Assembly: GCA_950106755.1 (NCBI GenBank)
Contig: OX467082.1
Location: forward strand, 18,476,001-18,540,000
Source: Climacium dendroides
Lineage: Eukaryota > Streptophyta > Bryopsida > Hypnales > Climaciaceae
Reading direction: 5' to 3'
Length of the DNA stretch: 64,000 bases
Under the pieces are notes generated by a model. It was not told the origin of the DNA. It did not search any database and saw only the letters and a list, made by a program, of their open reading frames with translations. Positions within the stretch are counted from its first letter, which is position 1. Each line of letters starts with the position of its first letter. This document shows positions 12,381 through 59,830 of the stretch, piece by piece. A program made the position numbers and the translations under genes.

Positions 12381-13028
12381 ATGAGTGATCAAGCTCTCAT
12401 CTTCAAATTGTCCCATACCCTTTCAAGATTCATGATGGACAATGGATTTAATTTTAAATACAACCTCTCCACCCATTAATTAGTGGACATGTGTTGGTAT
12501 CAAATTGTACACATATCTTTTCTAGTATTTGGACTTATTTTACAATTAATTTTCTTTAGATTTAGCAAGGTGACTTGCTAAATTTTAAGATCATTTAGAA
12601 TTTGATATTTTGATTATTTTTCATCAAGGGTGACATTTAGTTGTACAAGACATGTGGTCCCTTATGATGGGTGAAGAAAATATGAGCCATGTAAGAATTG
12701 TATCTAGTTAAAAAGCACTTATAGTAATTATGAACCTAAACTTCTTTAAAAACTTATTACAATTTTCTTCTTGTGTAGAAGTTTTATCTACACTAGTAAA
12801 AAAATTTGTGACCAAAACAACTAAAAATTGTTGTTTACATTTGTTGTTTTGGTTGCGTTGTACCAATCAAAATCATACTCAAATCTGTTGATTTGTTTTA
12901 TCATTTTGATCAAATCCGGAAAAAATATAATTTATAATTTTTTTTTCAAATTTTTTTCCCAAAAAATTAAAATTTTTTTGGTTTCTCAAATTTTTAGACA
13001 ATCTAATTTTTTTTCTTCTTTTGTCCGC

Positions 13029-13194: not shown

Positions 13195-13515
13195 TTGGAG
13201 GTCATTTTAATATAGTAAAACAACTTTTTTTGAAAAAATTTGAGGAAAGAAAAGTTGTGAAACCAAGCTAACTTTCATTTACAAAAGTTTGTTTTGAGAT
13301 TTTAGGACTTCAATCAAAAGTTGTGGACAGACTTTAAAGATGATGTTTGAAAATGTCCTCAAAAATGTTTTATTCAACCCCTCTTTGAACTTTGTCCATA
13401 ACTTTTGATTTGAGGCTTCAAATCTCAAACAAATTTTTGGAGATGAAAGTTAACTTGACTATACAACTTTTTTTAATTCAAAGTTTTCTGAAAAAAAATA
13501 TTTTACTATATCAAA
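13195..13515. repeat. Foldback repeat, copy 2
   Basis: Imperfect inverted repeat sharing motifs with copies 1 and 3, such as ATAACTTTTGATT and GGAGATGAAAGTTAACTTGA. It lies inside the degenerate CACTA-like element. Confidence 0.6.
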
Positions 13516-14449
13516 ATTGCTACCAAAGTCTTTTGAATTTTAAAAACATCACATTATAAATAATTAAGTTAAAAGAAACATTTTTATAATACAAATATCC
13601 TCTACAAAGTCTTGCAACTCTACTATGAAGTCTAATAAAAAAAAATTGTACTTTGTCCTTCATAATTTGTACCATTTTCTCCTTCATACTTTGTCTATTT
13701 TTTATAAAAGTTGTTGGAATTTTTTTGTGTTTAAGTCTAGTTTTTTAGGTAAATTTTTCAAGTTTTTTTAGAATGTTTAGATTTATTGCATTCTAACCAG
13801 ATTATATTTTGAAGAAAATTCAATTGAAAATGAATTCAAATTTTCATTCTAGTCAAATTAGAATTTAATCAAATTTATTTATTTGAATCAAATTAGAATT
13901 CAACTTCTATATTCAAATTTTGAAAGAAATTCCAAAAGATTTCAAAAAATTCCAAAAAATTCTCAAAGATTCTTTAAGATTTTTTAAAGATTTTTTGAGA
14001 AACCAAAAAATTCTTAAAGATTTTCTAAGATTTTAAAAAGATTCTTAAAGATTCTTAAAGATTCTTTCAAATTCCAAAAAAACAAAAGGATTCCAAAAAA
14101 AATCCAAAAAAATGGTTTAAGAAAATTCCATGCCATACAATACGCAGTTCAACAAAACAAAAATCTCATTTGAACAAAAACTTGTTGATTGTTACAATTC
14201 ATGTCCAATGGTGCCCAAAACAACAACTGATTGTTGATTTTCTGTCAGATTAGTCACTACTTTCTAGTAGTGTAATACATGGAGTTTGCAAATGCTAGGT
14301 TGGAATGGACCCTTAGTTAGTTAGTATACGCTACAACAATTGTGCAAGTTTGCCACATAGGATGGCTGTGGAAACAATTACACTTTTAGATGGGCCAACT
14401 GTGCTTGAATTTCTCCTTTTGAATTTGCATGAGAAATTGAACTAACCTT

Positions 14450-16413
14450 CACTAGTAGAAAACAGGGTCAAATGTAACCGGTCAAATGTAACCAGTCAAA
14501 AAATGACTGGTTACTAAAAGGCTACTGAAAAATGACTGACAGTCATGGAAATGGTGCCAAAGTTGACCTGTCACAATCAGTAGTCATTTAGTAGTGATTT
14601 CCCAGAGCAGTGGATGGCGACCAGATGAAACAAACGACCAGAACTAGTGTCATCCACAGTTCAGTCTGTATTCTGTAGCCTTATTGTTGATGCAGTTTTC
14701 GTTGAGTCATATTTGAGTTGTGCTGTCATAAAATGAGCACAATATATGACTACAATAAAACTGAAAAATGACTGACAATAGGACACCATGGAAATTGAAC
14801 TTATTAAATTTATTATTTGCTTCTCTATAAAATGCTAATTGCATTGTAGTCATTTTTAAGTCACAAACTACTTTTCAAATGGACAATTTAGATGAATGGA
14901 TCAGATGGACGGCTTAGATGGAATGATGGATGGATCAAATGGATGGCTTAGATGGAATGATGGATGGATCAAATGGATGGATCAAATGGACGGTTGAAAT
15001 GGTGGAATCAGATGGACAATTTGAAAATGAATAGTTTAGACTTTAAATGGATGGATAAGATTGTATCTTGATAGTAAATGGAGGGCTTAGATTTTAGGTC
15101 AGCCGCTACATTTTAGGTCATCCGCCTTTCTATTTCTATGTAGGTTGACATGTGGCATATTGTAATTACAGCTGTCAAACACACATTGCAGCTGCTGCTG
15201 CCTTCTTCTTCAAGATTCATCTCTTCTTATATTTTCCTCCTATTTTTGCCTTCTTCTTCAAGCTTCATCTTCTTTCATATTTTCTTCTTGCTTTTGCCTC
15301 CTCTTTGCTTCTTTCTTCTTCTTGTTTTTGTTTCCTTCTTGTTTCTTGTTCATCAACTTCCTCTTATTTGTTCCTCTAGCTTGTAAATGAAGGTTCAGGT
15401 CTACTCCCAACCTTATCTCTTGAATGTAGCAATTTACTTTTTCTTTAGTGTTTTCTACTATTTACTTCTTGTTTGTTGTTATTTGTTGTTGTTCAATTCA
15501 GGCAATTCAGGTAGTTCAGGCAATTTAGGCAATTCAGGTAGTTTAGGCAATTTAGGCAATTCAGGTAGTTTAGGCAATTTAGGTAGTTCAGGCAATTCAG
15601 GTAGTTCAGGCAATTCAGGCAGTTCAGGCAATTTAGGTAGTTCAGGCAATTCTGATAGTTCAGGTAATGCAGGTGGTTTAGAAAATTTAAGCAATTTAAG
15701 CAACTCAAGCAATTCCTGATTTCTAGCAACTTAGGCGATTTAAGGAGTTTAGGTAGTTCATGCAATTTAGGCAACTTAAGCAATTCAGATTTTGACATAG
15801 TGCAATTATAGTATAGTCATAGTATAGTCATAGTACAAACATAGTGTAGTAATAGTATAAATGTAGTCATTTATGCTTACAATATTGTGACCGAACTAAT
15901 CATTTTTTGGAATGAATATCACTTGAAAATGACTACCATAGCTTACATAGTAACTACAAAATGATTGCAACAGCTTGCAAACTAATTGCAGCAACCTGCA
16001 AAATGACTCCAACAGCTTACAAAATGACTGTAGCAACTTGTAAACTGATTGCAACAACCTACAAAATAACTCCAGTAGCCTATAATATGACTCCAACAAC
16101 CTATTTGACATCAAATAGAATCACTCCAATACCAACGAATAAAAAACTGCCAACTCAACATGTTAGATCTGTAGCCACGTGGCAAACTGCCATTGGAGGT
16201 GCTCCATATAATCACACCCTAATGAAGTTCCACATCAGCATAGGATGAAAAAGAATGGTCTTGTCCCAAATGACTGCCTTGTCCGTAATTACTTGTCCTA
16301 AATGACTTTGAGCCCAAAATCCAGTTTTAGTCATTCTATTGACATTAGTGTCCTAAATGACTGGTTATGCAGTTATAAACATCAGTCATTGATAGCCTGT
16401 TTTCTACTAGTGC
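14450..16413. mobile_element. 2-kb non-autonomous CACTA transposon
   Basis: The left end CACTAGTAGAAAACAGG and right end CCTGTTTTCTACTAGTG are perfect 17-bp inverted repeats. CTT is duplicated at 14447-14449 and 16414-16416. Both subterminal regions carry many AAATGACT copies in both orientations, as CACTA elements do for transposase binding. The interior has tandem repeats (GATGGA-type near 14890-15010, 9/18-bp type at 15496-15715, 54-bp type at 15960-16110). No transposase frame is present. Confidence 0.9.
15496..15715. repeat. 9/18-bp minisatellite inside the CACTA element
   Basis: About 24 copies of a 9-mer alternating GGCAATTCA and GGTAGTTCA/TTA. The plus strand could be read as (GNSGSSGNL)n following a hydrophobic stretch from 15387, and the minus strand as LPELPKLPEL. 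This open frame follows from the 9-bp period and is not evidence for a gene. Confidence 0.85.
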
Positions 16414-39142: not shown

Positions 39143-39547
39143 GTCGAAAGCAAATGCAAGAATTATGTTTGAAGTAGAATTTCAAACCTCATTTAGGTAT
39201 AGTAGAATAATTTTTTTCATAAAACCTTGAACTAATAGAAGTTGATAAATCAAGTTAACTTCCATCTCCAAAAATTATTTTGTAACTTTGATCCTCTAAT
39301 CAAAAGTTAGGCACAAAAATCAGAGAGGATGTTAGAAAATGTCCAAGAAAATGTCCCGTTCAACCTTGCTCAGAAATTTGATCATAACTTTTGATTGGAG
39401 ACTCAAAATTACAAACGGATTTTCGGAGATGAAAGTTAACTTGATTTGTCAACTTCTAGTAATTCAAGGTTTTTTGAAAAAATTAATAATTCTATGCCTA
39501 AATGAGGTCTGAAATTCTACTTCAAACATAATTCCTATGTTTTGACA
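39143..39547. repeat. Foldback repeat, copy 3, uninterrupted
   Basis: About 405 bp of imperfect inverted repeat, centred near 39345. Its left arm reads AAGAATTATGTTTGAAGTAG where copy 1 has AATTGT, the MITE, then GTTCAATGTAG. The downstream flank (AAGCTCTCAT.TTCAAATT) also matches copy 1, so the family unit extends beyond the palindrome. Confidence 0.75.
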
Positions 39548-40023
39548 ATGAACGATGAAGCTCTCATTTTCAAATTATCCCATAACCTTTGAAGTTTCAT
39601 GATAGTCAATTGATTTCAATATAAAAATGACATTCCCTTCTCACAATCCCACCAATTTGTCATCAATTTTTTTTGTGGAAGATGGTCAAAGGACATTGAT
39701 ATTGAAGTATTCTTCATTTCGCAAAGCTGGATGGATGAGGACTCTGGAGAGGAGAAGGTAACTTCTGTGAAGGGTGTTGAATGTTATGGTTTCATATCTG
39801 AATGCTGGATAAATTCTTTAGAATCAATTTCACCGAACCAACGTAATAAATGTGTCTCCATAAAATACTACCTGCAGAGTATTATCTTTTAAGAACCAAT
39901 GCTACCAAACGCCAAGTGGGGACGGAACACAAGTCTAGACATGAACGTCAAGCTAGTCAGTATGAAGGTTATTTTTTTAGTACCTTGTGAATCATTTGCT
40001 TAAAAAGAATCCAAGAACACCTT

Positions 40024-44479: not shown

Positions 44480-44487
44480 TCACAAAC
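44480..44487. repeat. Left 8-bp target-site duplication of the giant hAT
   Basis: TCACAAAC, directly before CAGGGTTGTC. The identical octamer follows the right end at 59823-59830. Confidence 0.85.
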
Positions 44488-44489
44488 CA

Positions 44490-44846
44490 GGGTTGTCTAT
44501 CCAGACGTGACGTGGGCTTTTCACGTCCGGATGTCATGACGCGTCCGTCTTGACGTGTCGTGACGTCGTCAGGATCCGTCACCAATACTGACGTGACCGT
44601 TTGAGCATGGATGAAGTCTGTCCAGCTGTGCACGGCCTCCTGGACAGTAAGACGTCCCTCGGACGGGAAGACGTCCCTAGGATGTGAGGCCGTCCCCAAT
44701 ATGTGAGGCCGTCCCCAGAATGTGAGGCCGTCCCCCGGATGGCAGGCCGTTTCCGTTGGGCTTAGGGTCCATCCGTTGACACATTAGCCGTCAGTCCGTC
44801 TAGCTGGGTTTTAGGGTTTTAGGAACGCCCTGAAGGTGTATATTAA
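44490..44846 (+). promoter_or_regulatory. Left subterminal CGTCC array and transposase promoter
   Basis: Dense GACGT/CGTCC motifs (44505-44800), including three near-copies of GTGAGGCCGTCCCC. A TATA-like TATATTAA follows at 44839-44846, about 215 bp before the transposase ATG. Subterminal repeats of hAT elements are typically transposase binding sites (established for Ac and related elements). The binding role here is inferred. Confidence 0.65.
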
Positions 44847-45061
44847 GGACTTACGCCTATTCAAGATTACTTTTCCTTGCTGATTTTGGCTTTCATGACT
44901 TGGTTGGAGTACAACCATTGCAGTAAAGCAAAATCCAAGAAGAATGTGTTGTGGTGGCACTTGTTGTGAGAGCAACAAGTATTGCTTCTATATCGCATTT
45001 CATACAGAATACTAATCTTCTTTCTTGTGCAGGGGCAAGTAGGAAAGAATAGATAAGAGCA

Positions 45062-47176
45062 ATGGGTGGAGGAAGATCACATTGGGAACCTTGGTACACA
45101 CTACGAGTGGATGGAAAAGTTGCTTGCAAGTTTTGCGAAGCTTTGCTAAGCTATCGAAAAGATCGGTTGCTTTTCCATTTGGGGTACCGACGAATGGACA
45201 AGCTCCTTGGAGTGAGAGCTTGCACTAAAGTTAGTGCAGCCGTGAAGCTAATGTTTTTTAATTGCGGAGGGGATATACCTGCAAGCACTTCGGACAAGAG
45301 TGGACAGGATGTGGAAGTGACATCTCCATCAATGGTACTTCCGAGTGTTGTACGTGGTGAGCAAGAACCTGATGCCTCAATCTCAGGAAACGATGGAGGA
45401 GAAAACACTAGGGGACAAAGCTCTCAAGTACGATCATCAGACGCACCCAACCCGAGTTTGGCCCACAGTCGATCAATGAGGCAATTGTCTGTGCAAGAAG
45501 GAATGAATACATCAAACAAGCAAGTACTAGACAAAAAGTGGGCTAAGTTCTTCTATGAAGCCAATATACCTTTCAATGTAGCGAGGCATCCGGCTTTTTT
45601 GGATGCCGTGAAATCAACATCAGAATCGAGAGTTGGCTACAAACTTCCAACGTACCATGCACTTCGTACAAACCTCATGAAATCTACAAAAGACGAAGTG
45701 GCGGCAATGGTAGCGGAGAAGACAAAGGCACCAATCCACAAGTACGGCGTTACAATATGCTTTGATGGATGGAACAATGTCAACCATCGACCATTGATGA
45801 ATGTCATGTTGGCATGTACAAGTAGAGAGGTATTTCTTGGATCCATAGACACAACAGGCGAACGCAAAGATGCTACTTATGTGGCTAATTGCATGGGTGA
45901 TTATATTGACAGGGTAGGGGCGCAAAATGTGGTACAAGTTTGTACAGACAATGCAGCGAACATGTTGGCTGCTAGTGCTTTGTTACTTCGTCGATTTTCA
46001 CACTTATATTTTCAAGGGTGTTCAGCACATGCACTTGACCTTCTACTTGAAGATTGGGGCAAACAAGATTGGATAAAAAGTATGGTCAAGAAAGCCAAGT
46101 CAATTGTGAAATACATTCGCACACATCACATGCCACTTGCAATTTTTCGACGACATTCTCCTAATCTCATTTTGAAGAATCCCGTTGAAACACGCTTTGC
46201 AACCATGTTCCTTATGATTGAGCGTTTGGTACATGTGAGGGTAGCGATAGAATCAACAGTCCACGATCCGCAATGGAATGAGTATACAGAGAGATTGACA
46301 TCAGAGGAAAAGAAAAGAAAAGCCAACGATGTGCGACAGTATGTACGAACGGATGAATTTTGGAGGAGATGTTTAAACTTTGTGCACATAGTGGAGCCCG
46401 TATTGGTTGCTTTTAGAGAGTTTGATGGCAAGCACCCATGCTTAGACAAGGCATGGCTTGTGATGAAAAAGGTGGAAAAGCATGTTTTGAAACTATGGGA
46501 TCCACCATTTTCTTTGGAACCACGGTATGCAATTCCTGCCATCAATGATTTCTACAAGCGTTGGGACATGTTAAGGATAGATTTGCATTATGCTGGGGCT
46601 CTATTGAATCCTTTTTTACTTGACGAAGTCTTGCTAATGGATGATGACGAGGCAAGAGAAGGCATATTGAGAGTATTGCGCAAATTGGCTGTTCTAGATC
46701 AAGCATTTGCTTCAACTTTGTCTGAGTACCAAGCATTTCGAGATCGTCGGGGCATTTTTGGTGGACTTCCCGATGTAAACACTTTAAATTTGCAGCCTCA
46801 CGAATGGTGGGACCTTCTCGGAGCCGGTGCTCGTACACTTGCACCAATTGCAAAAAAGATCCTCGCCCAAGTGTGCTCTGCATCGTCGTGTGAACGCAAT
46901 TGGAGCATGTATTTGTTTGTCCACAACAAATCACGCAATAGACTGACATCAGAGCGTACTCAGGAATTGGTTTACATTTACACCAATTCCAAAACTCTTA
47001 GAGAAAGGGCTGCAGCAAATCCGACAAGGTGGTACACCGAGAACATGATGTCAGAAGATTCCATGACCGATGAATCGGATGGTCTAGACCGTGATTCGGT
47101 TCGCTCTAACCCCAATGATGACGATTCAGATGATAGTTCCAATGATGGCGATGACCCACCATTCCATGGATTTTAG
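45062..47176 (+). CDS. hAT-family transposase, full length
   Basis: A single-exon 704-residue frame. Residues 11-42 resemble a degenerate BED-type finger (WYTLRVDGKVACKFC then H39). Residues about 190-340 match the DUF659/RNase H-like core: CFDGWNNVNHRP (Asp about 235) and VCTDNAANML (Asp about 295), followed by GCSAHALDLLLEDW. The C-terminal dimerisation region has EWWDLLGAGARTLAPIAKKI (about 580-600) and SSCERNWSMY with Glu about 610. The three acidic residues expected from the Hermes DDE triad are all present, so activity is plausible. It lies 574 bp inside the left end and reads away from it. The tail is acidic (DDDSDDSSNDGDD). The frame continues past the TAG stop. Confidence 0.92.
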   Translation: MGGGRSHWEPWYTLRVDGKVACKFCEALLSYRKDRLLFHLGYRRMDKLLGVRACTKVSAAVKLMFFNCGGDIPASTSDKSGQDVEVTSPSMVLPSVVRGEQEPDASISGNDGGENTRGQSSQVRSSDAPNPSLAHSRSMRQLSVQEGMNTSNKQVLDKKWAKFFYEANIPFNVARHPAFLDAVKSTSESRVGYKLPTYHALRTNLMKSTKDEVAAMVAEKTKAPIHKYGVTICFDGWNNVNHRPLMNVMLACTSREVFLGSIDTTGERKDATYVANCMGDYIDRVGAQNVVQVCTDNAANMLAASALLLRRFSHLYFQGCSAHALDLLLEDWGKQDWIKSMVKKAKSIVKYIRTHHMPLAIFRRHSPNLILKNPVETRFATMFLMIERLVHVRVAIESTVHDPQWNEYTERLTSEEKKRKANDVRQYVRTDEFWRRCLNFVHIVEPVLVAFREFDGKHPCLDKAWLVMKKVEKHVLKLWDPPFSLEPRYAIPAINDFYKRWDMLRIDLHYAGALLNPFLLDEVLLMDDDEAREGILRVLRKLAVLDQAFASTLSEYQAFRDRRGIFGGLPDVNTLNLQPHEWWDLLGAGARTLAPIAKKILAQVCSASSCERNWSMYLFVHNKSRNRLTSERTQELVYIYTNSKTLRERAAANPTRWYTENMMSEDSMTDESDGLDRDSVRSNPNDDDSDDSSNDGDDPPFHGF

Positions 47177-48153
47177 GGGGCGAGAGGAGTGCGTCCTCTA
47201 ATTGATGCATCTGTATTTGACTTTGAAGAGGGGGATAATAACGACAATGACCACGAGGGATATGATGGAAGTCCACCACAAATGCCACAAGGATGGAATG
47301 CTGGGCCAAGCGGGGGAAATACGAATGAAGACATTGTGGCACCGAGACCACTAAATCCAAATCCTATCGATGTACAGGTTGATGCCCCAATGGAAAGAGA
47401 TAGTGTTGACATGGAAAGAGGACGTGAACAAGACGTAGTAGTACCACAATCATTGCCTACGAGGACCACCCATAGAGAAGGGCCCCCTCATGGTGGAGAA
47501 TTAGATATGCCCCCTCCAAGTCAAAGGGATGTTGCACTACAACGTCAAACACCAATACTAGAGAATCAACAAATCCAAAGTTCAGCTAGGCCATCTAATT
47601 CCGGAGTTCGTCTACATGGACCCACTTCAACGATAGGTACACGATTGGCTAGTATGGTGTCCTAGTGTACGACTACAAACCCGACTTCATTGCACCCACC
47701 TACACGTGCCAATAATCAAGGGAAGCATTCACGACATGAAGGTACTACTAGTCAACGTGTGAGTCCTAAAACACGTAGAAGACTAACGAGAGAAGAAGCG
47801 GCATCCCAACCATTTTCAAGAGAAGTTCACATAGGAGGGCCTAGTATAGATGGCATTATGGACGCAACGGGCCAATGGGCCAACGGCCTCTTCGAACGTT
47901 GTCTTCTATAATTCGACCACAACGAAATCGAAATTCGAATGCCTCTAGCGAAAGTGGTAGTGCAACATCCAGTGATGATGGCGAGTCCATCGGTGCTAGT
48001 ATAGGCGAAGATGGTGAGGTTCCAGGAGATAGTGATTATCTAGAGACAATGCCTCGACAAGGTCCACGAGTAGAAAGTGGTGGTAATGAACCAATTGTAG
48101 CAGAAGCAAATGCCAATACTTCTAGGCGCGTTCTTAGGCATGGAAGACGTTGA
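47177..48153 (+). pseudogene. Acidic, disordered frame downstream of the transposase
   Basis: It continues the transposase frame after TAG 47174-47176: LIDASVFDFEEGDNNDND, then a Pro/Gln/Arg-rich stretch to TAG 47663-47665, then a basic stretch (SPKTRRRLTREEAASQP) to TAA 47909. A +1 shift near 47880 opens another frame to 48153 with Ser/Asp/Glu-rich sequence (SESGSATSSDDGES) ending RRVLRHGRR. It may be an old C-terminal extension of the transposase or a second element protein, broken by two TAGs and one shift. No domain recognised. Confidence 0.5.
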
Positions 48154-48717
48154 ATGTTTTTCAAAAGACAATATGATCTTCATGTTTTCAAATGCAATGG
48201 ATTTTGAGGCTCAATACCTTACATATTGAAATCGGCATTAATATGAAGTAGTACTTTTGTTCCTTTCATTCTATCCTTCATTTATGGTAAGAGTTTCAAT
48301 TTATTTTGATACATATTATAACTAATATGATTTGATTTCCATGTTTAGCTTTTCTAAAATCAAAATAAATAGATTTTTTCATTAAATTAAAAAAGGCATA
48401 AGTAGAAAATGAATTCTTATACTAGCAAAAAATATTAAAATATTCTACTGATTTTGAATAAAAAGATAAATTTGGGTTGATAGTCAAATTTGACTTCAAG
48501 GTGTTTGTTGTAGTTGTTTACTTGTTTGAGGTGTGATAAAAAAAGATACACTCAATGTTTAGATAAAATACATTTATATATATAAAAAAATGAGTACAAA
48601 ATGGATTGAGGGCACAAAGTGTGCTACATTGCTATGGATGTCCTCAAGCCGATACTATAATAACCACATTTGATAAGAAAACATTAATTTTGCAACTATA
48701 TGGTAATACACTATCAT

Positions 48718-50379
48718 CTAATCCTCATTGCACGCCTGTTCATCTTGAAGGTCTTGTTCTTTCCGGGCCTCGCGGTAGCAATCCACGGGTGGTGTCCAAA
48801 ACGTTGGAGCACCACTTAGACGTTGCACGGCAAATGTCACTGAGCGTCGTTGTAGTGGCTCCACCTTGCACAATTCACCCAGTGTCGCTTGAAATGTATC
48901 AAATGCCATATGGTCAGAAATCATCTCTGTATTTTCGTGATCCTTTTTCCATACCTTCATAGCCAATCTCCCTATGGAGTATCCATCCGTGTGTATACTA
49001 ACAGATGGTGGCTTACCCATGCGACTAGGAGATGTTGAAGTTCCTGTCTCTCCAACCATGTACATCAACTCCGGAGCCACCCACCAACGTTGCTTGCGAG
49101 TTGCCTGCAACTTATTTGCACAACTGAATTGGTAAAGAGAAGGGGTTTCTTCATTGATGCGGCTATTCATTCCCCAATCACATAGACCAATCCACACGGT
49201 TCTTCCATCGTCATTCGGAAAGTGAAGCATGATGTTCTCCGGTGTGATGTCGTTGTGCAGTACTGAACATTGTTGCACTGCATCCACAATGCAGAGCAAC
49301 GCCCACGCAAGTTCGGTGCACTTGCGTTTGTATGCCATAAGTCGTTTCATGGCTTGCATTGTTTGTGGAGTTGCATGGTAAGCCACCTCCCCAATTTCGT
49401 CTGGATCTCGGGTCTTCTCATCAAGGGTAAACATGGCGCCCAGAGTACCTCCATTCCACCATTGAGAATAACACTCCATGGTCATGTCATTTATGGCAAA
49501 GAATTTGATGACCTCTGGATGATCGCATGGACAAACCAATGCCTCAATAGACAACTTCTCCCTTGACTTCTTCAAGTCATCAACGCGCACGGCCGACTTC
49601 CCAGCTAATTCCATATTCTCAAGAATATGGTTCGAATTCTGAAGACAAACCTTGCGTACCCTCCCGTGCCCCCCTTGTTTGTTATGGCCAGACAACGGAA
49701 CCACTACAACTCCTCTCTCAAGAAAAACCACTCCACCCACAGCTTGTTGACCAAAGGCCAAGTTTTGACTTCGTTGAAACCACGGAGCAGAACGGATGTT
49801 GTTTGAAGATAGTCCCCGCATTGCTTCATGCCACCAATACACCTTCTTGTGCAACAAATTCAATGCTTGTTGTTTGGGCACTATACTCTTTTGAAAGCCT
49901 TTGATTTTTTCCGCAACTTAGGCAAGGTTGAAGATGCACGTTTGCACTTGTGACTCCAACCAATGATTGAAGGATTCCTTTGTGCGGTCTTCCAACCACT
50001 CATCCTCGCTCATTGTTGTCTAAAACATGTGGTGGAACTTTTGTTTGATGGCATCCACCCCCTGTAATTCGCGCGACACATATATTGTGTTCAACTGCAG
50101 AATCGAATACTGCTCAAAAAAACCCAACACCACTTCATGCAATTTGCGAGTTGCAACCTTGCTTGGCCACTTCTCTGGATTTGTGGCCTTGTACCTTTTC
50201 CATTGTTTTTTCTTCGACTTCGAAGACTCTCCCGCACCCACAATTGCTATGGCTCCTTTTGCAGCTACAGCCTCTGAAATCTGGCTTTCTGATTCCGCAG
50301 GCGGGTCCAAACTCGTTCCATCTCCAACTCCTGAAAACCACGCATCAACCTTCCTCTTCGAGAAATCGCGACCAGCCAT
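48718..50379 (-). pseudogene. Protein-kinase-like cargo gene with two in-frame stops
   Basis: It reads from ATG at 50379-50377 to TAG 48720-48718, 554 codons in one unbroken frame except TAG (50022-50020) and TAA (49920-49918). The N-terminal part (MAGRDFSKRKVDAWFSG..., then KKKQWKRYKATNPEKWPSKV) is basic and unrecognised. The C-terminal half is kinase-like: CSVLHNDITPENIML (HND for HRD, with catalytic Asp and Asn kept), LCDWGMNS (DWG for DFG) and WVAPELMY (APE), then a helical lobe. The usual VAIK Lys is unclear (SAVRVDD). It converges tail-to-tail with the transposase unit. Translation could restart after the second stop, giving most of the kinase domain. Recently inactivated kinase, pseudokinase or recoded gene are all possible. 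Confidence 0.7.
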
Positions 50380-50565
50380 TGCGATAGTAGTGATAATCCA
50401 GAGGAATTAGGAATTCGGGTTCCACAAAGTGAAAAACCGCCCCCTTATTCCTCAAACCAGCCTCTCACAAGCACCCGTGCTCCCAAGCAAGGACTGCAAC
50501 CAATCCAAGACAAGCGAGCACCGTCAGAGCAAGAGAGACTGTGGCAGAAATGAATCCAAACCCCT

Positions 50566-50745
50566 TTTAGATACCCATTTCCTCTCGACGGCATGACCGT
50601 CGAGATGGACGGTCATGCCATCCACGTCGACGGGCATGCCGTCGACAGGACAGACATGCCGTCGAGTGGACGGTCGCGTCGTCCAGATCGACAATCATGC
50701 TGTCAAGAGGACGGACTCCGTCCCCCATCCAAGGGCATCTAGGGG
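50566..50745 (-). promoter_or_regulatory. Internal CGTC array and promoter of the kinase-like gene
   Basis: At 50585-50740 there are many GACGG/CCGTC motifs (ATGCCGTCGAC, GTGGACGGTCGCGTCG). On the minus strand a TATA-like TATCTAAA (50573-50566) follows, about 190 bp before the ATG. The order array, TATA, leader matches the other two element genes. Confidence 0.6.
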
Positions 50746-51831
50746 ACGAAAAGACCGTTGAAACAAGCTATCGCCCAAAGTGTTGAAAGCATGGAATTAA
50801 TTGCGAATCCTTGTTCGGGGAATTTTTCAATTATCTTGTTTTCCACCCTGGGACTTGTCAGGACAGGTGTCCATGTTTGAAATACTACATTGTCTATGGT
50901 GGCGGGAAGTTTTGGAGTGCCAATTAAATGTTCACGTTTGTTCCTATGGATGTAGAAATAAATACCAATAATGACATTCAAATGCAGATGAAGGGTTTAG
51001 GGTTTAGGCTCGAATAAAATGGAATTTTATTTAGTTGCACATAAATAAAGGAAAAAACAACCCCAAAAATTACAAAAGGGCATATTCAAAACATCTTAAT
51101 TTAAGTCCTAGAATATTTTTGATATTCACATAAAAAATTGCATCATTTCATTTGCACCCATAATAAGAAAGTCGTGGCCAATGTTTGTATTACAACAATC
51201 AAGCCATCAAGGCATCCCCTCGCAACTTAAATAATTTATACGGATCAAATTTAAATGCAATGAATTTTAGAATTCCATATAGAGTAATTTCACCTTTGGG
51301 ATTATTGTATTTTGATTCCAAGCTTCCCTACATGTAAGTGCACCTAACAATTTCACAATTTAGTATTTCTTGAATATTCAATCTGCATGTACTCAATTCA
51401 AACATACAAACATTCACTAATTTACTAAGTCCATATCAAATATACAAAATCAAAGACAAAATGGCCCTCTAAAAGCTAAACTCTAATATTGTAAACTTAA
51501 TTTTAAAATCGTTCATTAAAAAAGATATCTAAAAAACTCCGAAAAAAAAATGTATAATATAGAATCATTGATTCATTACAAACATTCTTACTTCTTGCAT
51601 TTGATCCAATACACCAAAAAAAGGGGACTTCCCCTATCTATGCTGAAAGATAAACTTATACTCTGATTTTTGGTCTTCAATATGCATTATGAGAATATGA
51701 ATTTAATTCAACAATCCATTTTTGCTTCAATTCAAACTCTACAATTCAATTGAGCTTTGAACATATAATCCCAATTAAAAAAACCAAGATCATCTATATG
51801 GTAATTTCAACTATGACTTATGTTTCCAAGT

Positions 51832-51893
51832 AAACCCTAAACCCTAAACTCTAATAATCTATACCCTATACCCTAAACCCTAAACCCTAAACC
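51832..51893. repeat. Interstitial telomere-like repeat 1
   Basis: TAAACCCTAAACCCTAAA, then variants (CTATACCCTATACCCTAAA) and three more TAAACCC units. Matches the plant telomere unit CCCTAAA with CCCTATA variants. Confidence 0.85.
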
Positions 51894-53468
51894 CTATATT
51901 ATGCCATAGTTTATACCTATAGAGCCTAGTTCTATCAAAAGAATTAGTAATTATACTCCTTTGATTAAGGGATGGTTATGAGGGGTTGGCCCTTATAAAA
52001 ATTCCACTACAAGTTAAATGGTTTTCAATTTTGCACCATTTTTGTTGTTTATAATCCTTGGTGAAAATTTCAGATTTTTACCATATGATTTATGGGTTCA
52101 TTGAAGCCCCTCCCACCCTCCCGTATGTCTACTTTCCATGAATTTTTGAAATTTATAGCTATAGGATTTTTTCCTAACACCAATAAGATTGATTTACAAT
52201 AAAGGGATTTTTTTGCCAGAGGGTAAATATTGTCATACTTCACCTAGATAATAATTTTTTCTTGGTTAAGTTTTAACCTTACATAGGGATTAAAATCAGA
52301 ATCTTCTATGTAGGTTGACATGTAGCAAAGTTGAGATCATTAGTCTCCTTTCTAGTCTTGGTGTTTACACCTTGTGATGGGCTGACACATGATGGGAAGT
52401 TCCATGCCAGTTCAACAAGTGGTGGCTATTAGTTTCTAGAAGAGGTCTGGGTCACCGTTTGTGATTCACAAACGGTTGATTTCCACTAATTTTGGGAGCC
52501 TTCTAGAAGATATTTGACCTGTATACCTAGGTCCCTAGCTATAATTTCTTGGAAGCTAGGCCGTCGTTTCTAGAAACTCAAGGTAAATTTCCTTGGGGGT
52601 TTTGTGGAGGACCTAGGCATGGACTACTCTAGCCATGGCTTACCTATACCTCTACTTGGGTATAAAGGTCTGGACCAATTCAACAAGCCCTCACAACTTG
52701 CTGTTGTTGGCTGGCTTTGGAAAGGACTGCGAGTAGTTGGTGTGAGGACTAGAGATGGCGTCTACACAGGTCTTCTATGCTGCATAGGATGCTAGACTAG
52801 AATTTGTTAATTAAGTTTCTTGTGATTTGAGTTTTCATGTTTGATTTTTGCTTTTGTGACTGCTATAACACGCTGCTGTGAACTGAAGACACCTTGTCTA
52901 CGATTTACTAACATTCCGATGTTTGGTTTGTCATGGGGACAGGTGAGGTTCACAGCCTCTTTGGTAAAAATCTACATGGCAACTTTTTTTCAAGACCTTG
53001 ACAACAAATTTCTATTCTCTTTGGGTTCTAATTCATGATGTGTTTTTGGATTTAGAGCACTACATGATTTGTCTATAATTTATTGACATGTTGTATTGGT
53101 ATTTTTATTTAGAAAGGATCTAAAGATGTTCTTGATTTGATCCTTTTTTAATATTTCTTTACAAAAGATTTTATTGACTTGATGTACATAAAAATTTCTT
53201 TGTAAAGGATTTTATTACGTTGACTTGATTGATCCTATGTACAATATATCTTTACTAAAGATTTTATTGACTTGATGGAATCAATCCTATGTACAATACA
53301 TCTTTGCTAAAGATTTTATTGACTTGATGGATTTGATACTTTTATAGTTGGATGTGAGTGACCTCCATTCTACTTTGTACTATCCATGATCTTTGAAATA
53401 CTTTTTAGATTATGATTTGTTTGTTATTTATAGGAAAGGCCCTTCTAGGGATGTCCCTCCCACCCACC

Positions 53469-53550
53469 CGGGTTACCTAAACCCTATACGCTATACTTTG
53501 TACCCTATACCCTAAACCCTACACCCTATATCCTAAACCTATACCTTAAA
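53469..53550. repeat. Interstitial telomere-like repeat 2
   Basis: Degenerate CCCTAAA/CCCTATA/CCCTACA units in the same orientation as the patch 1.6 kb upstream. Confidence 0.8.
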
Positions 53551-54194
53551 TGCTCTTTCTTATTTTCCTTTTAAGACTATTTGATGTTGCTCAAGTTTAT
53601 GTGATTTTAGCAAATAATTTCAAATTGAAGTAAGACCAAATCCAAAAATAGATGAATGGATTCCAATATTTCATATAGTTTTCTAACAAATGTTTCGCCT
53701 AAAACCGTAATATATTACATTTGTCCTTTGGATTGAAATTTTGATCTAGTTTCTTGTCCTATATACTAAAAGTCTTCTAACTAATGGTTTTAGTTTAATT
53801 TAGGATACTAACACTTTTGAATCTAAAACTCATATCTATATTTTACTTATTTCCTATTACATTAAAAGTGAACCAATATGGTGGTTCACAGAATAGAATG
53901 TAGATAATTAAAGAATATATAATCTTTAAATGGAAATATTGACATCCTCATATAACCGCTAGTTAATTCTCAAAATCATAGAATCATGCAAGTTGAATGA
54001 AGTGTGAAGCCAAGAGTACCTTAACATCCATAATATTCCCTGTACCTTTATAATATCACATTTTAACACTGTGTGATGTTACAGAAGTGGAGTGGCTATT
54101 GCAATTTTGTATTATAATACGGTGTTAAAATGTGATATTATAAAGGTATTGGGCCTCTGTAATATCACACTCTGTAAAATTATGGTATTACAAA

Positions 54195-54950
54195 GGACCT
54201 TGTGATTTTAGTAGTATGGTAGTGGTTGGCGCTTGCTATGCTACACATTCATCATTTGAATTTTATTGAATTTTTATGTATTAGATAAAATAAAGAACAC
54301 AAATTTCAATAAACCTTCAAATAAAAGTTTCAATAAACCTTCCATTTACTACTAAAATCTTTATATAATTTTGTTTATAAATAAGCATATACTGAAATGT
54401 ACAATAGAAATTTATTGAATGATGAATAAAATATATGCAATGGGCAATATGTAAAAGATCTACATGTATTATAATGCATTCCAAGATTGACTTTGTTGTT
54501 ACAAACAATGCCACCCCCCAAACTGGGTGAATTGAAAAGAAGAACTTGTAAATTTCAAAACTTCGTGAACAATTTAATTGTTGTGAAATCCAAAATCGCT
54601 TCAATTGAATAAATTTCTCAAATCATTTGGAAGTAGCAATAGAATTTTAAAATCATAAAAGTTCAAGGCTTACAAAAACACAAAATCATAGAAGTGCAAA
54701 GAAGTGTAAAGCCAAGAGAAGCAATGATATTTATATATGCATGATTAGAAGTAATTTTACAATATATTGGAAATTATTATTTTAAAGACTTATTGAAATC
54801 GTTATCATACATTGTATTCAAATACATCAAAATTTCATCAATATGTGATACAATGAATGCGTAGCATAGCAAGCACAAGCCCCTAGTATTAATGGTAGCA
54901 TTTGTAATATCCCAGAGGCCATTATGATTTTAGTAGTATGATGATGATAG
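54195..54950. mobile_element. TIR element family X, copy 2 (inverted relative to copy 1)
   Basis: The left end TGGTTGGCGCTTGCTATGCT (about 54226) and right end AGCATAGCAAGCACAAGCCC (about 54870-54889) are imperfect inverted repeats. Outer TTTTAGTAGTATG motifs lie on both sides. Interior phrases match copy 1 at 33.5-33.8 kb in reverse. It sits inside the giant hAT, so it inserted later or was carried along. Confidence 0.6.
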
Positions 54951-55045
54951 TAGTTGGCGCTTGCTATGCTACACACTCATCATTAGATCCAAAATTGCTT
55001 CAATTGAATGAATTTTTCACATCATTTGGTCGTAGCAATAGAAAA
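54941..55045. mobile_element. TIR element family X, truncated copy 3
   Basis: TTTTAGTAGTATG then GTTGGCGCTTGCTATGCTAC, followed by sequence (CGTAGCAATAGAAAATTT) matching the interior of copy 2 near 54630. It stops where the CGTC array begins at about 55060. Confidence 0.55.
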
Positions 55046-55063
55046 TTTCAATCATGAACCCAC

Positions 55064-55359
55064 AAAGGGCAAGCCGTCGAGGGGACGGGCCAGCCGTCCA
55101 GATCGACGGACAAGCCGTCGAGGGGACGGGCAAGCCGTCGAGGGAACTCGCGGACGGCGCAGTAATGATTTTCCAATCCTCTTTTCAGCGCCCCGAGCCT
55201 TTGGACGGCTTTCCAAACTTGTCCCGAACCTTCGTGGACGGATTGACCGTCCATTCCAGGGCTGTCCCATGTCCCTGGACGGTCTGGATTTGAGCTGGAC
55301 GTCATGATTATGTACTAATCACCGGGCATAATTGGATCGGTAATTCGGAGGTATAAGTA
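55064..55359 (+). promoter_or_regulatory. Internal CGTC array and promoter of the RING gene
   Basis: Repeats of AAGCCGTCGAGGGGACGGGC and CCGTCCAGATCGACGG from 55070 to about 55305. A TATA-like TATAAGTA is at 55352-55359, about 215 bp before the ATG at 55572. This has the same layout and nearly the same leader length as the transposase gene. Confidence 0.6.
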
Positions 55360-55571
55360 TGTTTTGTTGGCTCATTTGAAATCGCTTCCTCTTTTGAGTT
55401 GCTTTGTCCTGGCTTGAGAAAGCTTTGCATTGTAATTCGAGAGGAAGTGTTATACATTTGGCATTTGTTTTGCCACTTTTCAGTTGCCTTCACGCAACAG
55501 AAGGCAAAGCAAATTGTCAGTGTATCCGCAAACAGACTACAGGTACAGGGAATTTGGGACAGGTATCCAGA

Positions 55572-57776
55572 ATGGACGGAGAGGATGCAGCACGAGGTTC
55601 AGAACATGGAGGTGAGTCCCCAAGTAAAAAGAAGAGGGGGAACAGGGCAACCTTGAATTGGGGCACACTCAATGCCTCGGAGATTATGGCAAATGAGGGG
55701 TGGATGAATGAAGATTCACTGTGGACAAGAGTGACGTGTCGGAAGTTCGTAGATTGGGCCCACATCAACCGCCATTGGGCACCTGACCGGTACGAGGTAA
55801 ATGTGAAATGCGGGGTTGTAAATTTCGACCAGTGCCGACATCCGCACTTCAAGAAGAGATTGATTGAAGTGGCATTGGCGATTTGGGGTTCGAGATCCAA
55901 AAGAGATGGGACCCTTTCGTTGTGCCAAATGGCATATGCGGAAGTTTTTCTTGGGAAGGATGTGGATTGGAGAACCTTCCTCGGCAAGATGCGTCATGGT
56001 CAATCACCAAATAGACCTCGCAGCATTCCACCTAACCCTGCCGTGCCATTGGACAATGTACCCAATGTGCAAGAAAACCCGGAAGAGCAAGTGGAGCAAT
56101 CCGGGATGGAGGTGATGGAGGTAGAGGGTGGCATGGGCACCGAAGAAGACCTACCCAATGAAGATGCGATTGGTGGAGTGAAAGGCGAAGGTGATGAAGT
56201 ACTTCGCTTGCGACAATTAGTCCAAACGTTGCAAGCAGAAAAGGAAGCCGCATTACGACAACATGTTGCAGAGTTGAAAGGGCAAAGGGCTAGGGTGAAG
56301 GACCTTATGGATGAGAATGCAAGACTCATCGCACGCGAGGCCGACCTCGTAGCACGTGAAAGGCGGTTGAGTACGGATGAAATTCCACCACTTGATGTGG
56401 TGGTCGAACGTGCTACATACGGTGCAGACGAAGACAGATTAGGCCCCAGCAATGCAAACGAGTTTAGGGTGCGGTCACGGTCCTTGTTTCTAAGTGTTGG
56501 AGGTGCCACGTTGGATATTATGCGTGCACGTGCGGAGCAAGCTGAAGCAGAGGTTGGAAGTACTAAAGCCCACGTTGAAGAATTGACAAACGCTATGCGG
56601 GCTTTGGAACTTCGCGCTAACAAAGTCGAGGCAGATGTGGTGGTGCTTACTACAGTTCAAGTTGGCTTGGAGCAGACCATGACCGCATTAAGTGCTCAAA
56701 ATATGCGGTTGGTCCAAAACCCGCAGAAGGAACGCATGCTGCTTCAAATGTGCAACATGAAGTTGACATGCAGCTTAGCACTAAGCGAGGTTGAGCAGAT
56801 GCAGCGTGAAGTGAAGAGAGTGGCTGCGGAGTTCAATGATGGCGGCGAACGTTATTTTGGCTTGACCTCGTGGCCTCGAGTGGAAGAAATGTTCACTGAT
56901 GATTTGCCAATGAAGCTCGAGAATGCAAGCATCGATTGGAATAGTTCTCCAGACTTGGAATTCCAATACGACACGGAGTGCTATCGATACGAGCCAGCGA
57001 ACCGCGATGGGATTAAGCCACTACTGTGGCCTTTGGTTCCCGATTTTGTACAAGACGGTACCTCATGTATTATGTGCCAAGAACCATTTGGCCCCGAGGG
57101 TGGATGGCATCTTGGTACATGTGACCATTTATACCACCCCATGTGCCTCATTCCACACATGGTCACCCGAAAAAGATGTGCACAATGCAAGGCTCCATTT
57201 CATCCGAGGCTGTACAAAATGTTTGGCCTCCAAACCCACATGCTTGAACATTACGAGCACAATGAAGAAAATTTACCGGAGCCCGCGAATAGAGCGCATT
57301 GGGGGATGGACATGACTTGGCTTTGGAAGTGGGGCCACGACAATCGACACCTCCCGGCAAGAACGGTTGCGGAGATACACTAGGAGAATGATGACGCGGT
57401 GACAGAGGTGATTAAGAGGGTAATTGGAGATGGTGATCCAAGGCAGCGATTATATTTTGGTCAAATTGCTGGTGGACATTGGGACCCGGACTTCTCCATT
57501 TTTGTGCGTGCACCACATCCACAATGCATAATGTTTAACTCTCAAGGCATGCCTGTCGAATTCGAAGGTGAATTGAGTTTTGAGGAAGAAATGAACTACA
57601 TTGAAGACAATACCTTCCGTGAGCCTGCACTTGTGAGTGCCATTTTCTCCCATTTACACAACAGATACGATTGTGACGCACATCAGCTTTTGACGACTTT
57701 GCAATCAAGACAAGAGTTGCAAAGATTTTTGAGAAGCAGCATAGCACGAGGTATTGTAATTGAAGAAGTAGAATAG
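55572..57776 (+). pseudogene. Coiled-coil RING-H2 cargo protein, one in-frame stop
   Basis: From ATG 55572 the frame runs 603 residues to TAG 57381-57383, then continues without shift for 130 codons to TAG 57774-57776. The N-terminus is basic and nuclear-signal-like (SPSKKKRGNRAT). An unrecognised globular part follows (SLWTRVTCRKFVDWAHINRHW). Residues about 215-425 include heptad-rich coiled coil (VLRLRQLVQTLQAEKEAALR). A RING-H2 finger lies near 500-545: CIMC, GTCDHLYHPMC and CAQC, i.e. C3H2C3. Such fingers usually mark E3 ubiquitin ligases, though target and activity are unknown. The part after the TAG has no known domain but keeps protein-like composition (RLYFGQIAGGHWDPDFS). An upstream in-frame stretch from 55404 lacks an ATG. 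Confidence 0.75.
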
Positions 57777-59310
57777 ATAGTTTTGGATGACGCTATGTAC
57801 AAATAGATAGATGCATAGAATTAAATTTCTAAAGTTGTACAAAGTAGAGCAATGTAAAGCCTAAATCAATGTACCACGTTTTGATGCATTTATAAAACAT
57901 TGTACATTTATCATTTTCTTTTCACCTCGTGTATTGTTGCTTTGCCTTTGTCTTTTGGATTAATCCATTGGCCGTTTTCCTATTAGTGTAGAAGAATCTT
58001 ATATACTTAGATGGTAGAACCTTCACGGATTATTTTTTTTTAATTTCTTGCCAAACAATGTAAAATCAATTTAGCAACTTTTGTAATTAGAAATTCAATA
58101 ACGAACTCTAATCCCTTATCCTTAGCATCCTAGATGCCCAAGGTTTGCTTTGAGCTTTGTAGAATTTGCTCTAAATTGAACAACATGTCAACATTTTCAT
58201 TAGGTGTATCAATTTTCAAAAAATTATAATTGTATAAATTCGAACTAGGCATGTTAGAAACCTCATAGAAAAGGAATCCTAAACAATATCACTTATGGAG
58301 TAAAAGATTATAATGTTTGCCCAGGAGGGTGTTAAAACTAAAAAAATGATGTGAAGTCTTACAATCCTCTTTTCACAAGTCCAATTTAAAAAGTTGGTGA
58401 CCAAACAAATATGAGGTTAAAGGACCTAATATGTATAACCCCAATTAATTTATGGCTTTTAAAAATCTATACTATATTTTCTTTAATTTTAAATGAATTT
58501 TGAATGTGATTTTTCCTCCAAGATCCAATGTTTTTGAGGCACATTTCCAAGACCTCTCAATACTACAACAAGTCAAGATTGCAATAGGTACCCTTGCACA
58601 AAGTTTAGAATAGAAAAATCACTATCACATATTTTTAAGAACAGACTATTGATGCTATAACTAGAATTCAAGAACAACTTTTTAACTTCAAAGTTTGAAC
58701 AACACCAAATTTGGGTGCCTTGGGCATGTAAGGGTTAACCATTTTTTGGACGATGAACAAATTCAGCTTCCTATTTCAGTTTGGTTTTTGCTTGGATCAA
58801 AGTCATCCTAATTTTTGGTGATATTTTATCTAGTTGACTAGTTCATATCTTATCTAAAGGTTAGATTTGTTGTTCTTAGAATACACATTTTTCTAAAATT
58901 ACAAATGTGGAAGTGTGTCAAGTGGTCAACTTGCATTGACCCTAGTTCAAAATTGAATTTGCAAAAATGAGGTCATAGATGTAAAGAATATAAAAATTTC
59001 AAAAAATCACCATGTCAACACAACCTCATTTTAAGTCCATTCCAACAAATTTCAATCAAGGAATGATAATATTTTGCTTGTAATTGAATTTTGAAGGAAT
59101 TTTGAATTTTTCCTTTCAAAATTTATAGAAAAAGATTGGTGATAGTATTGGTGGATCTAACCTTATGGATGGAATCTACAACTCAAAATCTACAACTTCT
59201 GTTTGTATACCAATTCCAAGATATTCTTCTAAATCATACTTTATAATGGTATTTTTCAAATTGTCATTTTGGGAGAAGAGTCCAGATGTTTAGGGGTTAA
59301 GTGCAACAAA
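57777..59310. other. AT-rich segment before the right end, no gene
   Basis: TAAGGGTTAA near 58729 and TTTAGGGGTTAA near 59289 are right-end-like motifs of the TTAA element family, so an inserted copy may lie here, but no left end was found. Confidence 0.45.
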
Positions 59311-59314
59311 TTCA

Positions 59315-59822
59315 AAGCCCGTCCATCCCGACCGTCCATCTCGACTGTCCAGCCAAACCGTCCATCTCGACCGTTTAGATCGACGGTCCAGATCGACCGT
59401 TCAGCCAGACCGTCCAAATCGACCGTCCAGCCAAACCGTCTAGATCGACGGTCCAGATCGACCATCCATCCAGACCGTCTAGATCGACGGTCCATCTCGG
59501 CCATCCAGCCAAACCGTCTAGATCAACGGTCCAGCCAGACTGTCTAGATTGACGGTCCAGATCGACCGTCCAGGTCGACGGTCCATCTCGGCCATCCAGC
59601 CGGACCGTCCAGCCCAACCGTCCACATCGACCGTTCATCCGACCGTCCATCGCAGCCGTCTAGAGCGTCCATCGACGAAGCTCGTCCATCCATTTCTGTA
59701 GTCTGAATCATCCTCTGTCGCCGGTTGTCATTTGGATTTCATCCTGACGGACGCCAGGGATGGATCCTGACGTCCGTCCGGACATCCTGACGGACGGACG
59801 CGACGTGACAGGGACAACCCTG
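59315..59822. repeat. Right subterminal CGTCC/GACGG array of the giant hAT
   Basis: About 35 short units such as GACCGTCCATCTC, GATCGACGGTCCA and CCAGCCAAACCGTC in both orientations (59320-59690). After a short gap come the stronger GACGGACG motifs of 59745-59805 and the terminus GGGACAACCCTG. Confidence 0.85.
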
Positions 59823-59830
59823 TCACAAAC
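59823..59830. repeat. Right 8-bp target-site duplication of the giant hAT
   Basis: TCACAAAC, identical to 44480-44487. Confidence 0.85.

Follow-up and report, generated by a model that had tools for sequence, protein, structure and literature searches.

Evidence for a giant three-gene hAT transposon with putative kinase and RING-type genes in the moss Climacium dendroides

The element and its ends

The DNA analysed here, referred to as the window, is a stretch of 64,000 nucleotides from the genome of the moss Climacium dendroides (GenBank assembly GCA_950106755.1, contig OX467082.1, positions 18,476,001 to 18,540,000 of the forward strand). Its interval 44480..59830 carries a hAT transposase gene, a kinase gene and a gene for a RING-type protein between short inverted ends, and, as judged from the sequence, it is almost certainly one decayed copy of a giant (14-15 kb) hAT DNA transposon with three genes. 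The features of the interval, in window positions, are the following (ORF, open reading frame; TIR, terminal inverted repeat).

44480..44487, no strand: target-site duplication TCACAAAC, left copy, 8 bp; duplications with at most one mismatch also at 30 of 37 sister copies
44488..44497, plus strand: TIR CAGGGTTGTC, left; this end is present in 36 of 37 sister copies
44500..44780, no strand: CCGTC array, left subterminal region and transposase promoter, with a 19-bp repeat at 44653-44750 (motif count)
45062..47176, plus strand: putative hAT transposase ORF, 704 residues, with DUF659 and Dimer_Tnp_hAT (Pfam; frame of about 1030 residues in sister copies)
47177..48153, plus strand: C-terminal remains of the transposase, broken by stops (ORFs; 1030-residue sister frames; relative P0049)
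48718..49821, minus strand: putative kinase ORF, 367 residues, with glycine-loop, AGK, HND..N, DWG and APE motifs (Pkinase match, alignment)
50020..50379, minus strand: N-terminal part of the kinase gene, separated by stops (562-residue sister frames)
50580..50720, no strand: CCGTC/GACGG array upstream of the kinase gene (motif count)
51000..55040, no strand: spacer between the kinase and RING genes, mostly AT-rich, 28-42% GC (GC profile)
55060..55310, no strand: CCGTC/GACGG array upstream of the RING gene (motif count)
55572..57383, plus strand: putative RING-H2/coiled-coil protein ORF, 603 residues (weak RING match, ligand alignment)
57531..57776, plus strand: C-terminal part of the RING protein, past a stop (792-residue frames elsewhere)
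59319..59649, no strand: CCGTC 13-bp tandem array, right subterminal region (motif count)
59813..59822, minus strand: TIR CAGGGTTGTC, right (right-end matches genome-wide)
59823..59830, no strand: target-site duplication TCACAAAC, right copy, abutting the right end

An exact search of the window found CAGGGTTGTC twice only, at 44488-44497 (plus strand) and 59813-59822 (minus strand), facing inward, and the octamer TCACAAAC lies flush with both outer edges (44480-44487 and 59823-59830). The inverted repeats at 44488 and 59822 inside the same octamer, which a preliminary description of this DNA had reported, were thereby confirmed. Since the octamer occurs six times in the window against 3.7 expected occurrences, it is by itself no proof of a duplication. 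The element between the paired CAGGGTTGTC ends (44488-59822) is 15,335 bp long and contains the hAT transposase ORF (plus strand), the kinase ORF (minus strand) and the RING-type ORF (plus strand). In this copy stops break each of the three frames. In some sister copies the frames are free of stops and comprise 1030 residues for the transposase, 562 for the kinase and 792 for the RING protein, and relatives of each are of similar length. The transposase had been described as full-length; a hAT transposase is indeed present according to Pfam, but in the window copy its frame is broken and it is not full-length.

Genes and arrays have a GC content of about 40-52%; in two spacers it is mostly 28-35%, and one stretch near 52.5-53.0 kb has 42%. 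The distance between the kinase and the RING gene is 5.75 kb in the window copy, against a median of 4.27 kb at 71 loci. Within this spacer, positions 53950-55058 hold a 52-nt inverted repeat (54038-54153) and repeated blocks of 33-72 nt. These repeats are perhaps a smaller insertion, to which the window copy would owe its excess of about 1.3 kb over the 14.0-kb median of the family.

The transposase

The hAT superfamily includes Ac/Ds, Tam3 and Hermes; its plant members are usually a few kb long, and its elements make 8-bp duplications and have TIRs of the CAGNG type. In the transposase ORF of the window, Pfam matches to DUF659 (7e-40) and Dimer_Tnp_hAT (6e-9) were obtained. P0049, a relative of the transposase (86% identity), aligns to Hermes through DGW, TDN, CSAH and CERNWS, and the same motifs occur in the window ORF; we take them to be the catalytic D..D..CxxH..E motifs of hAT enzymes. 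Both the RNase-H-type motifs of hAT transposases and a C-terminal dimerisation domain could thus be found. No Pfam match to zf-BED was obtained in the transposase, and its Cys and His residues resemble a BED finger by eye only. The 8-bp duplications were observed in the window's family and in a second family described below (families 1 and 2), and the short TIRs of both are of the CAGNG type (CAGGGTTGTC in the first, CAGGGTTGTCATAA / CATGGTTGTCATAA in the second).

In its DUF659 and dimerisation domains, its Hermes-like motifs, its short TIR starting with CAGGG and its 8-bp duplications the element is like other hAT transposons, and the short end pairs found in the genome resemble non-autonomous derivatives. 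It is unlike them in its length, about 14-15 kb against the usual few, in its two further conserved genes, and in motif arrays that stand also before the internal genes.

Among transposase relatives with a named source the nearest comes from the moss Ceratodon purpureus (P0098, 42% identity); the seed plant relatives are at 28-33%. In a large public protein collection the highest identity was 86% for the transposase and 73% for the RING protein; for the kinase it was 85% along its length, and 97% along a part making up 39%. The longest contig of the kinase relative P0008 (74%) and that of the transposase relative P0052 (73%) have 6480 bases each and are possibly the same contig.

Copies of the whole unit in the genome

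The window's own genome was searched (412.6 Mb in 123 contigs), and 111 matches of the kinase, 74 of the RING protein and 65 of the transposase were scored. Among the kinase matches 74 of 111 were at 92-100% identity, the window's own included. For the analysis of neighbourhoods 76 kinase matches with at least 60% identity were kept, the dropped ones being three second pieces and 32 matches at 29-36% identity; two of the 76, both near C3:2.55-2.57 Mb, probably represent the two halves of a single gene. Both the transposase and the RING gene, in the order and orientation of the window, accompanied 60 of the 76. The transposase partner lay at 1.5-2.2 kb from the kinase in 59 of 61 cases, and the RING partner at 3.7-6.2 kb in 65 of 71 (median 4.27 kb). 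The preliminary description had asked whether the additional genes occur only at fixed host loci; they do not, and an account of them as host loci was rejected as the main one because 60 of the 76 kinase matches are in units of the trio.

The ends were searched with 28-mers of the right and the left end, allowing up to three mismatches, with reversed patterns as controls. The right end gave 96 and the left end 127 genome matches, and both controls gave none, which indicates that the ends belong together. A right end was found within 12 kb of 60 of the 74 RING matches, at 2.4-3.2 kb in 59 of these. Chains from transposase through kinase and RING gene to right end numbered 52 with that of the window; the span was about 13.4-17.7 kb in 47 of them and 31-39 kb in five. 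These chains bear out the giant, gene-bearing hAT family that had been proposed.

Pairing was carried out for 100 listed left ends out of the 127. For 46 of these a right end was present at 13.4-17.7 kb (median 14.0 kb); the others paired at 9.5-9.7 kb (2), at 28-45 kb (8) or at 339-862 bp (27), or were unpaired (17). Among the 100 listed left ends no pair between 0.86 and 9.5 kb was found. These data bear on the reading that the interval consists of two or more adjoining elements, one ending near 50.75 kb and the other starting near 55.05 kb. The arrays at 50.58-50.72 and 55.06-55.31 kb do resemble the terminal arrays and have the same motif. However, the similarity continues past 50.75 kb in all but one (L011) of 29 other kinase loci that were fetched, the RING gene keeps its distance of 3.7-6.2 kb from the kinase in 65 of 71 cases, and the duplications match between the outer ends. 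The reading was rejected, no class of end pairs of about 6.3 or 4.8 kb being present among the 100 listed left ends, and we give it practically no chance. Copies ending or starting at these two points, named in the preliminary description as a sign of separate elements, thus form no class among the listed end pairs.

Duplications were read in 37 of the 52 chains; the five spanning more than 30 kb, the window itself and nine with incomplete transposase matches were left out. The left end could be located in 36 of the 37. In 30 of the 37 chains there was an 8-bp duplication, exact in 24 and with one mismatch in six, and the number was 31 when a shift of one base was allowed. In controls with mispaired ends (no shifts) 0 of 1260 pairs matched with at most one mismatch and 8 of 1260 with at most two. 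The octamers at the right end were all different (36 of 36), so that the anticipated large copies with the same genes and differing duplications are present: 52 chains, 47 of them at 13.4-17.7 kb. The matching duplications, as compared with the mispaired controls, together with the distinct octamers indicate that the whole unit was inserted independently, many times. The block between the CAGGGTTGTC ends thus appears to have moved as a unit on many occasions, making 8-bp duplications.

Further observations were made on the copies. The 27 short pairs with family ends (339-862 bp) fall into size groups near 350, 530 and 600-720 bp, and six of the seven 350-bp derivatives have a common right-end variant of their own. 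One end pair of 9.5 kb (G000:C40:9775783-9785319) has a truncated kinase match some 10 bases from its left end, and no match to the transposase was found in it; apparently an internal deletion took out the transposase. The kinase copies L027 and L028 (G000:C2:12951269, 12977819), of opposite orientation and separated by about 26 kb, are identical over 1101 bases, which may reflect a recent inverted duplication or an assembly effect.

The kinase and the RING protein

The kinase ORF gave a Pfam Pkinase match of 1.2e-9, above the cut-off. Ten aligned kinases all share GGxG, the AGK Lys, His and Asn in HND..P.N, the CDWG Asp and APE; we take the glycine loop, the catalytic Lys, the HRD-type loop and the DFG-type Asp to be represented among these invariant residues. 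The motifs of a eukaryotic protein kinase are thus found in the element kinase, which is likely to be active. Solved structures gave no match at E<=0.001 for the kinase P0004, and the kinase profile reached FUS3, PRP4 and MNK2 chiefly over the catalytic loop; by these comparisons the family is poorly related to the solved kinases. A scan of viral contigs with the kinase profile gave 57 pattern matches, none of which was confirmed, and no viral relative was found in it.

In the RING protein eight zinc ligands in C3H2C3 order are invariant in all four aligned RING proteins. Its nearest solved relative is RNF24 (E 0.003).

A second hAT family with the same three genes

The 32 further kinase matches at 29-36% identity pointed to a second family in the same genome. 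In one 20-kb stretch identity to the window's proteins is 41% for the transposase and 32% for the kinase, and the RING protein is 32% identical to P0001, itself a 73% relative of the window RING protein; the family-2 and window RING proteins share 42% identity over a piece of 196 residues which contains the RING. For the kinase of this family (kinase-2) 98 matches less five second pieces left 93 loci; for transposase-2, 150 matches less 51 rows of family 1 left 99; and for RING-2, 120 of 151 matches were used, the others belonging to family 1 or not being listed. Transposase-2 was present within 40 kb of kinase-2 in one arrangement at 58 of the 93 loci and in another at five, RING-2 within 15 kb in one arrangement at 70 of the 93 and in another at two, and the trio stood in order at 54 of the 93.

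The gene order in family 2 is kinase (minus strand), RING (plus), transposase (plus), against transposase (plus), kinase (minus), RING (plus) in family 1. Comparison of the flanks gave CATGGTTGTCATAA and CAGGGTTGTCATAA as the ends of family 2. Five copies had both ends read, and in these three exact 8-bp duplications and one with 7/8 were observed; copy L134, read on the kinase side only, was excluded from this count. The same trio thus appears to travel in two far-diverged hAT families of one genome.

Two side observations belong here. A kinase-2 subfamily at 55-59% identity has a RING-2 relative in the same arrangement at six of 13 loci, which hints at a third family carrying the kinase-RING pair. 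At G000:C39:4400000-4584000 family-2 kinase matches recur every 44.6 kb or so, five times, and those of transposase-2 four times, and each unit has two RING-2 matches of opposite orientation; this is apparently a large tandem segmental duplication containing elements.

Motif arrays at the ends and before the genes

Of the 85 CCGTC/GACGG sites in the window 55 fall within the element, where four clusters account for 51: one at the left end together with the transposase promoter, a second upstream of the kinase, a third upstream of the RING gene and a fourth at the right end. At each of the 30 kinase loci fetched between 8 and 59 of these sites were counted in the 950 bp upstream of the gene; the median was 21 there, 1 within the gene and 0 downstream of it. 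In family 2 another motif, GGGCGYGGAC, was found: in the one copy examined all 34 sites of a 25-kb stretch are inside the element of about 14.0 kb, and they too form four clusters, one at either end, one before the transposase, and one in the upstream region common to the RING gene and the kinase. No GGGCGYGGAC site is present in the 64-kb window. Each family would thus have its own main motif in a similar layout, at the ends and before the genes, family 2 being represented by one copy.

Selection and decay of the genes

The ratio of nonsynonymous to synonymous divergence (dN/dS) was determined between the window lineage and an older, decayed sister lineage (identity 74-76% for the transposase, 68-70% for the RING protein and 60-70% for the kinase). 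The transposase gave 0.30 and 0.37, the kinase 0.42 and 0.28, and the RING protein values of 0.27-0.32. In the recent kinase copies the median dN divided by the median dS was 0.57; higher ratios among copies are expected if copies decay after insertion. The comparison between kinase-2 subfamilies was saturated. Among singleton substitutions in 29 kinase copies (L034, whose frame differs, was left out) 147 of 176 were C-to-T or G-to-A, in CG, CHG and CHH contexts, a methylation-like bias such as methylation-driven decay would give. The values of 0.27-0.42 between lineages indicate that the additional genes behave like the transposase and not like dead passengers, and both appear to carry signs of purifying selection.

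An alternative is that host kinase and RING genes were caught once by an ancestral hAT and have been copied along with no role in transposition. Plant DNA transposons do capture coding DNA: Pack-TYPE elements, as outlined in excerpts of PMC8903248, are non-autonomous elements which do so, and they are like the present element in being DNA transposons that contain gene sequences. Unlike what these excerpts describe, the unit here includes a transposase at 61 of the 76 kinase matches and its additional genes recur in two families. The existence of end pairs of 0.34-0.86 kb, too short for the genes, would also fit passengers. Against this stand the dN/dS of both genes between lineages, which is as in the transposase, the recurrence of the trio in a second family at 32-42% identity and in permuted order, and the lack of any transposase-only class, the 56 long pairs listed being made up of 46 at 13.4-17.7 kb, eight at 28-45 kb and two at 9.5-9.7 kb. 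We consider mere passengers unlikely.

It may also be supposed that the additional genes serve the host or are addictive, as a modification or toxin-like pair, and are kept for their benefit or because their loss is punished. A kinase and a RING protein would make a plausible effector pair, and their key residues are kept over a long divergence. Yet many sister copies have stops in one gene or another and methylation-like changes, as is expected of selfish copies, and this explanation seems to us still less probable than that of passengers.

Relation to known systems

VANDAL elements are Mutator-like transposons with the genes VANA, VANB and VANC. The element described here is a hAT and not Mutator-like, and it has a kinase and a RING protein instead of VANA/B/C. 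According to excerpts of PMC5735166, the anti-silencing protein VANC of Arabidopsis VANDAL binds family-specific tandem motifs in non-coding regions, and these motifs are fast-changing tandem repeats; as far as this source goes, the likeness lies in a multi-gene plant DNA transposon with family-specific motif arrays in its non-coding parts. Among fungi, ToxTA (formerly ToxhAT) is, according to the abstract of PMC12506042, a 14-kb, non-autonomous element with TA duplications, and the Starship has a tyrosine recombinase. The present element shares with what is given there the size of a 14-kb transposon once called hAT and the carriage of other genes; unlike them it encodes a hAT transposase and makes 8-bp duplications.

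No multi-gene hAT with kinase and RING genes was found among the literature matches listed, a coverage mostly exclusive of subscription papers and preprints. In a review of plant gene capture (PMC13317346) the words hAT, kinase, RING, moss, bryophyte and kilobase are absent, and in the passages seen of PMC5872316 the sole relevant remark concerns kinase genes near fungal transposable elements.

Other features of the window

At 616-2532 (plus strand) there is an open frame of 638 codons with near-regular repeats of 13 and 16 residues (PPNFTFPPLPQFT), which is either a proline-rich repeat protein of cell-wall type or an expanded repeat. At 15452-15757 lies a minisatellite whose 9-bp unit has 23 registered copies. 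Copies of a family like miniature inverted-repeat transposable elements are at 12016-12458, 13284-13527 and 39160-39625, of which 39160-39534 is a hairpin with 166-nt arms and 84% complementarity.

Discussion

Cut-and-paste transposons are usually thought to need just a transposase and two ends. The best joint reading of the results is a decayed three-gene hAT of an ancient lineage with conserved helper genes, and we hold it to be highly probable. That a very distant second family has this trio too suggests that the additional genes help the element; the kinase and the RING gene are probably conserved helpers and not passengers. The preliminary description had called them cargo. They do belong to the element (60 of 76 units), but the term undersells genes which recur in two families under selection.

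As for the mechanism, the transposase would cut and paste the element from its ends like other hAT enzymes. An element protein, either the transposase or the RING protein, may bind the motif arrays, by which the ends and the promoters would be marked and co-regulated. The kinase and the RING protein could be helpers acting on a host or element protein; a factor of silencing, repair or the cell cycle, or else the transposase, might for example be phosphorylated and then ubiquitylated. This model of a motif code with a kinase-RING pair is the likeliest account of how the genes help, but it is held tentatively and falls well short of an even chance. Doubtful as well is the fuller proposal of an ancient hAT clade whose autonomous form has three genes in 13-15 kb, in which one element protein controls movement and expression by way of a family-specific DNA code in the arrays at the ends and before the genes, and in which the kinase and the RING protein disarm a host silencing or repair factor through phosphorylation and ubiquitylation.

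Several results weigh against the reading of a three-gene hAT with helper genes. As regards the unit, 16 of the 76 kinase matches are without one or both partners (one with the transposase only, 11 with the RING gene only, four with neither), but as the genome protein search scores the best candidates only, absent partners may be missed matches; five of the 36 copies with both ends show no matching duplication. In family 2 no RING-2 was found near 21 of the 93 kinase-2 loci and no transposase-2 near 30, and one of the five copies is without a duplication. As regards the proteins, zf-RING_2 remained below the Pfam cut-off of 27.3 bits, with 19.2 bits (E 0.0015) for the window protein and 25.9 for P0001, and the structure predicted for the RING protein was of too low a quality for use (predicted local distance difference test score, pLDDT, 39.8), so that no fold search of it was made. 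One of the ten aligned kinases is without the catalytic-loop Asp, the Asp of HND being kept in nine. The dN/dS values were taken from decayed copies with C-to-T biased changes; two old-lineage transposases compared with each other gave 0.66 and pairs of recent copies 0.38-1.04. CCGTC is not exclusive to its family, as 30 CCGTC/GACGG sites, some of them at the ends, occur in the 25-kb family-2 stretch. Finally, the helper roles of the kinase and the RING protein are proposed on the ground of their conservation.

The copies show that hAT elements of about 14 kb can reach scores of copies in a plant genome. Two diverged hAT families seem to keep the same additional genes and a similar layout of arrays in spite of different gene orders and motifs. 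If the proposal that these genes disarm a host factor is true, the element would be the hAT counterpart of VANC-type self-protection. Whether DNA transposons retain signalling and ubiquitin genes to escape host control may now be tested, with two families to compare.

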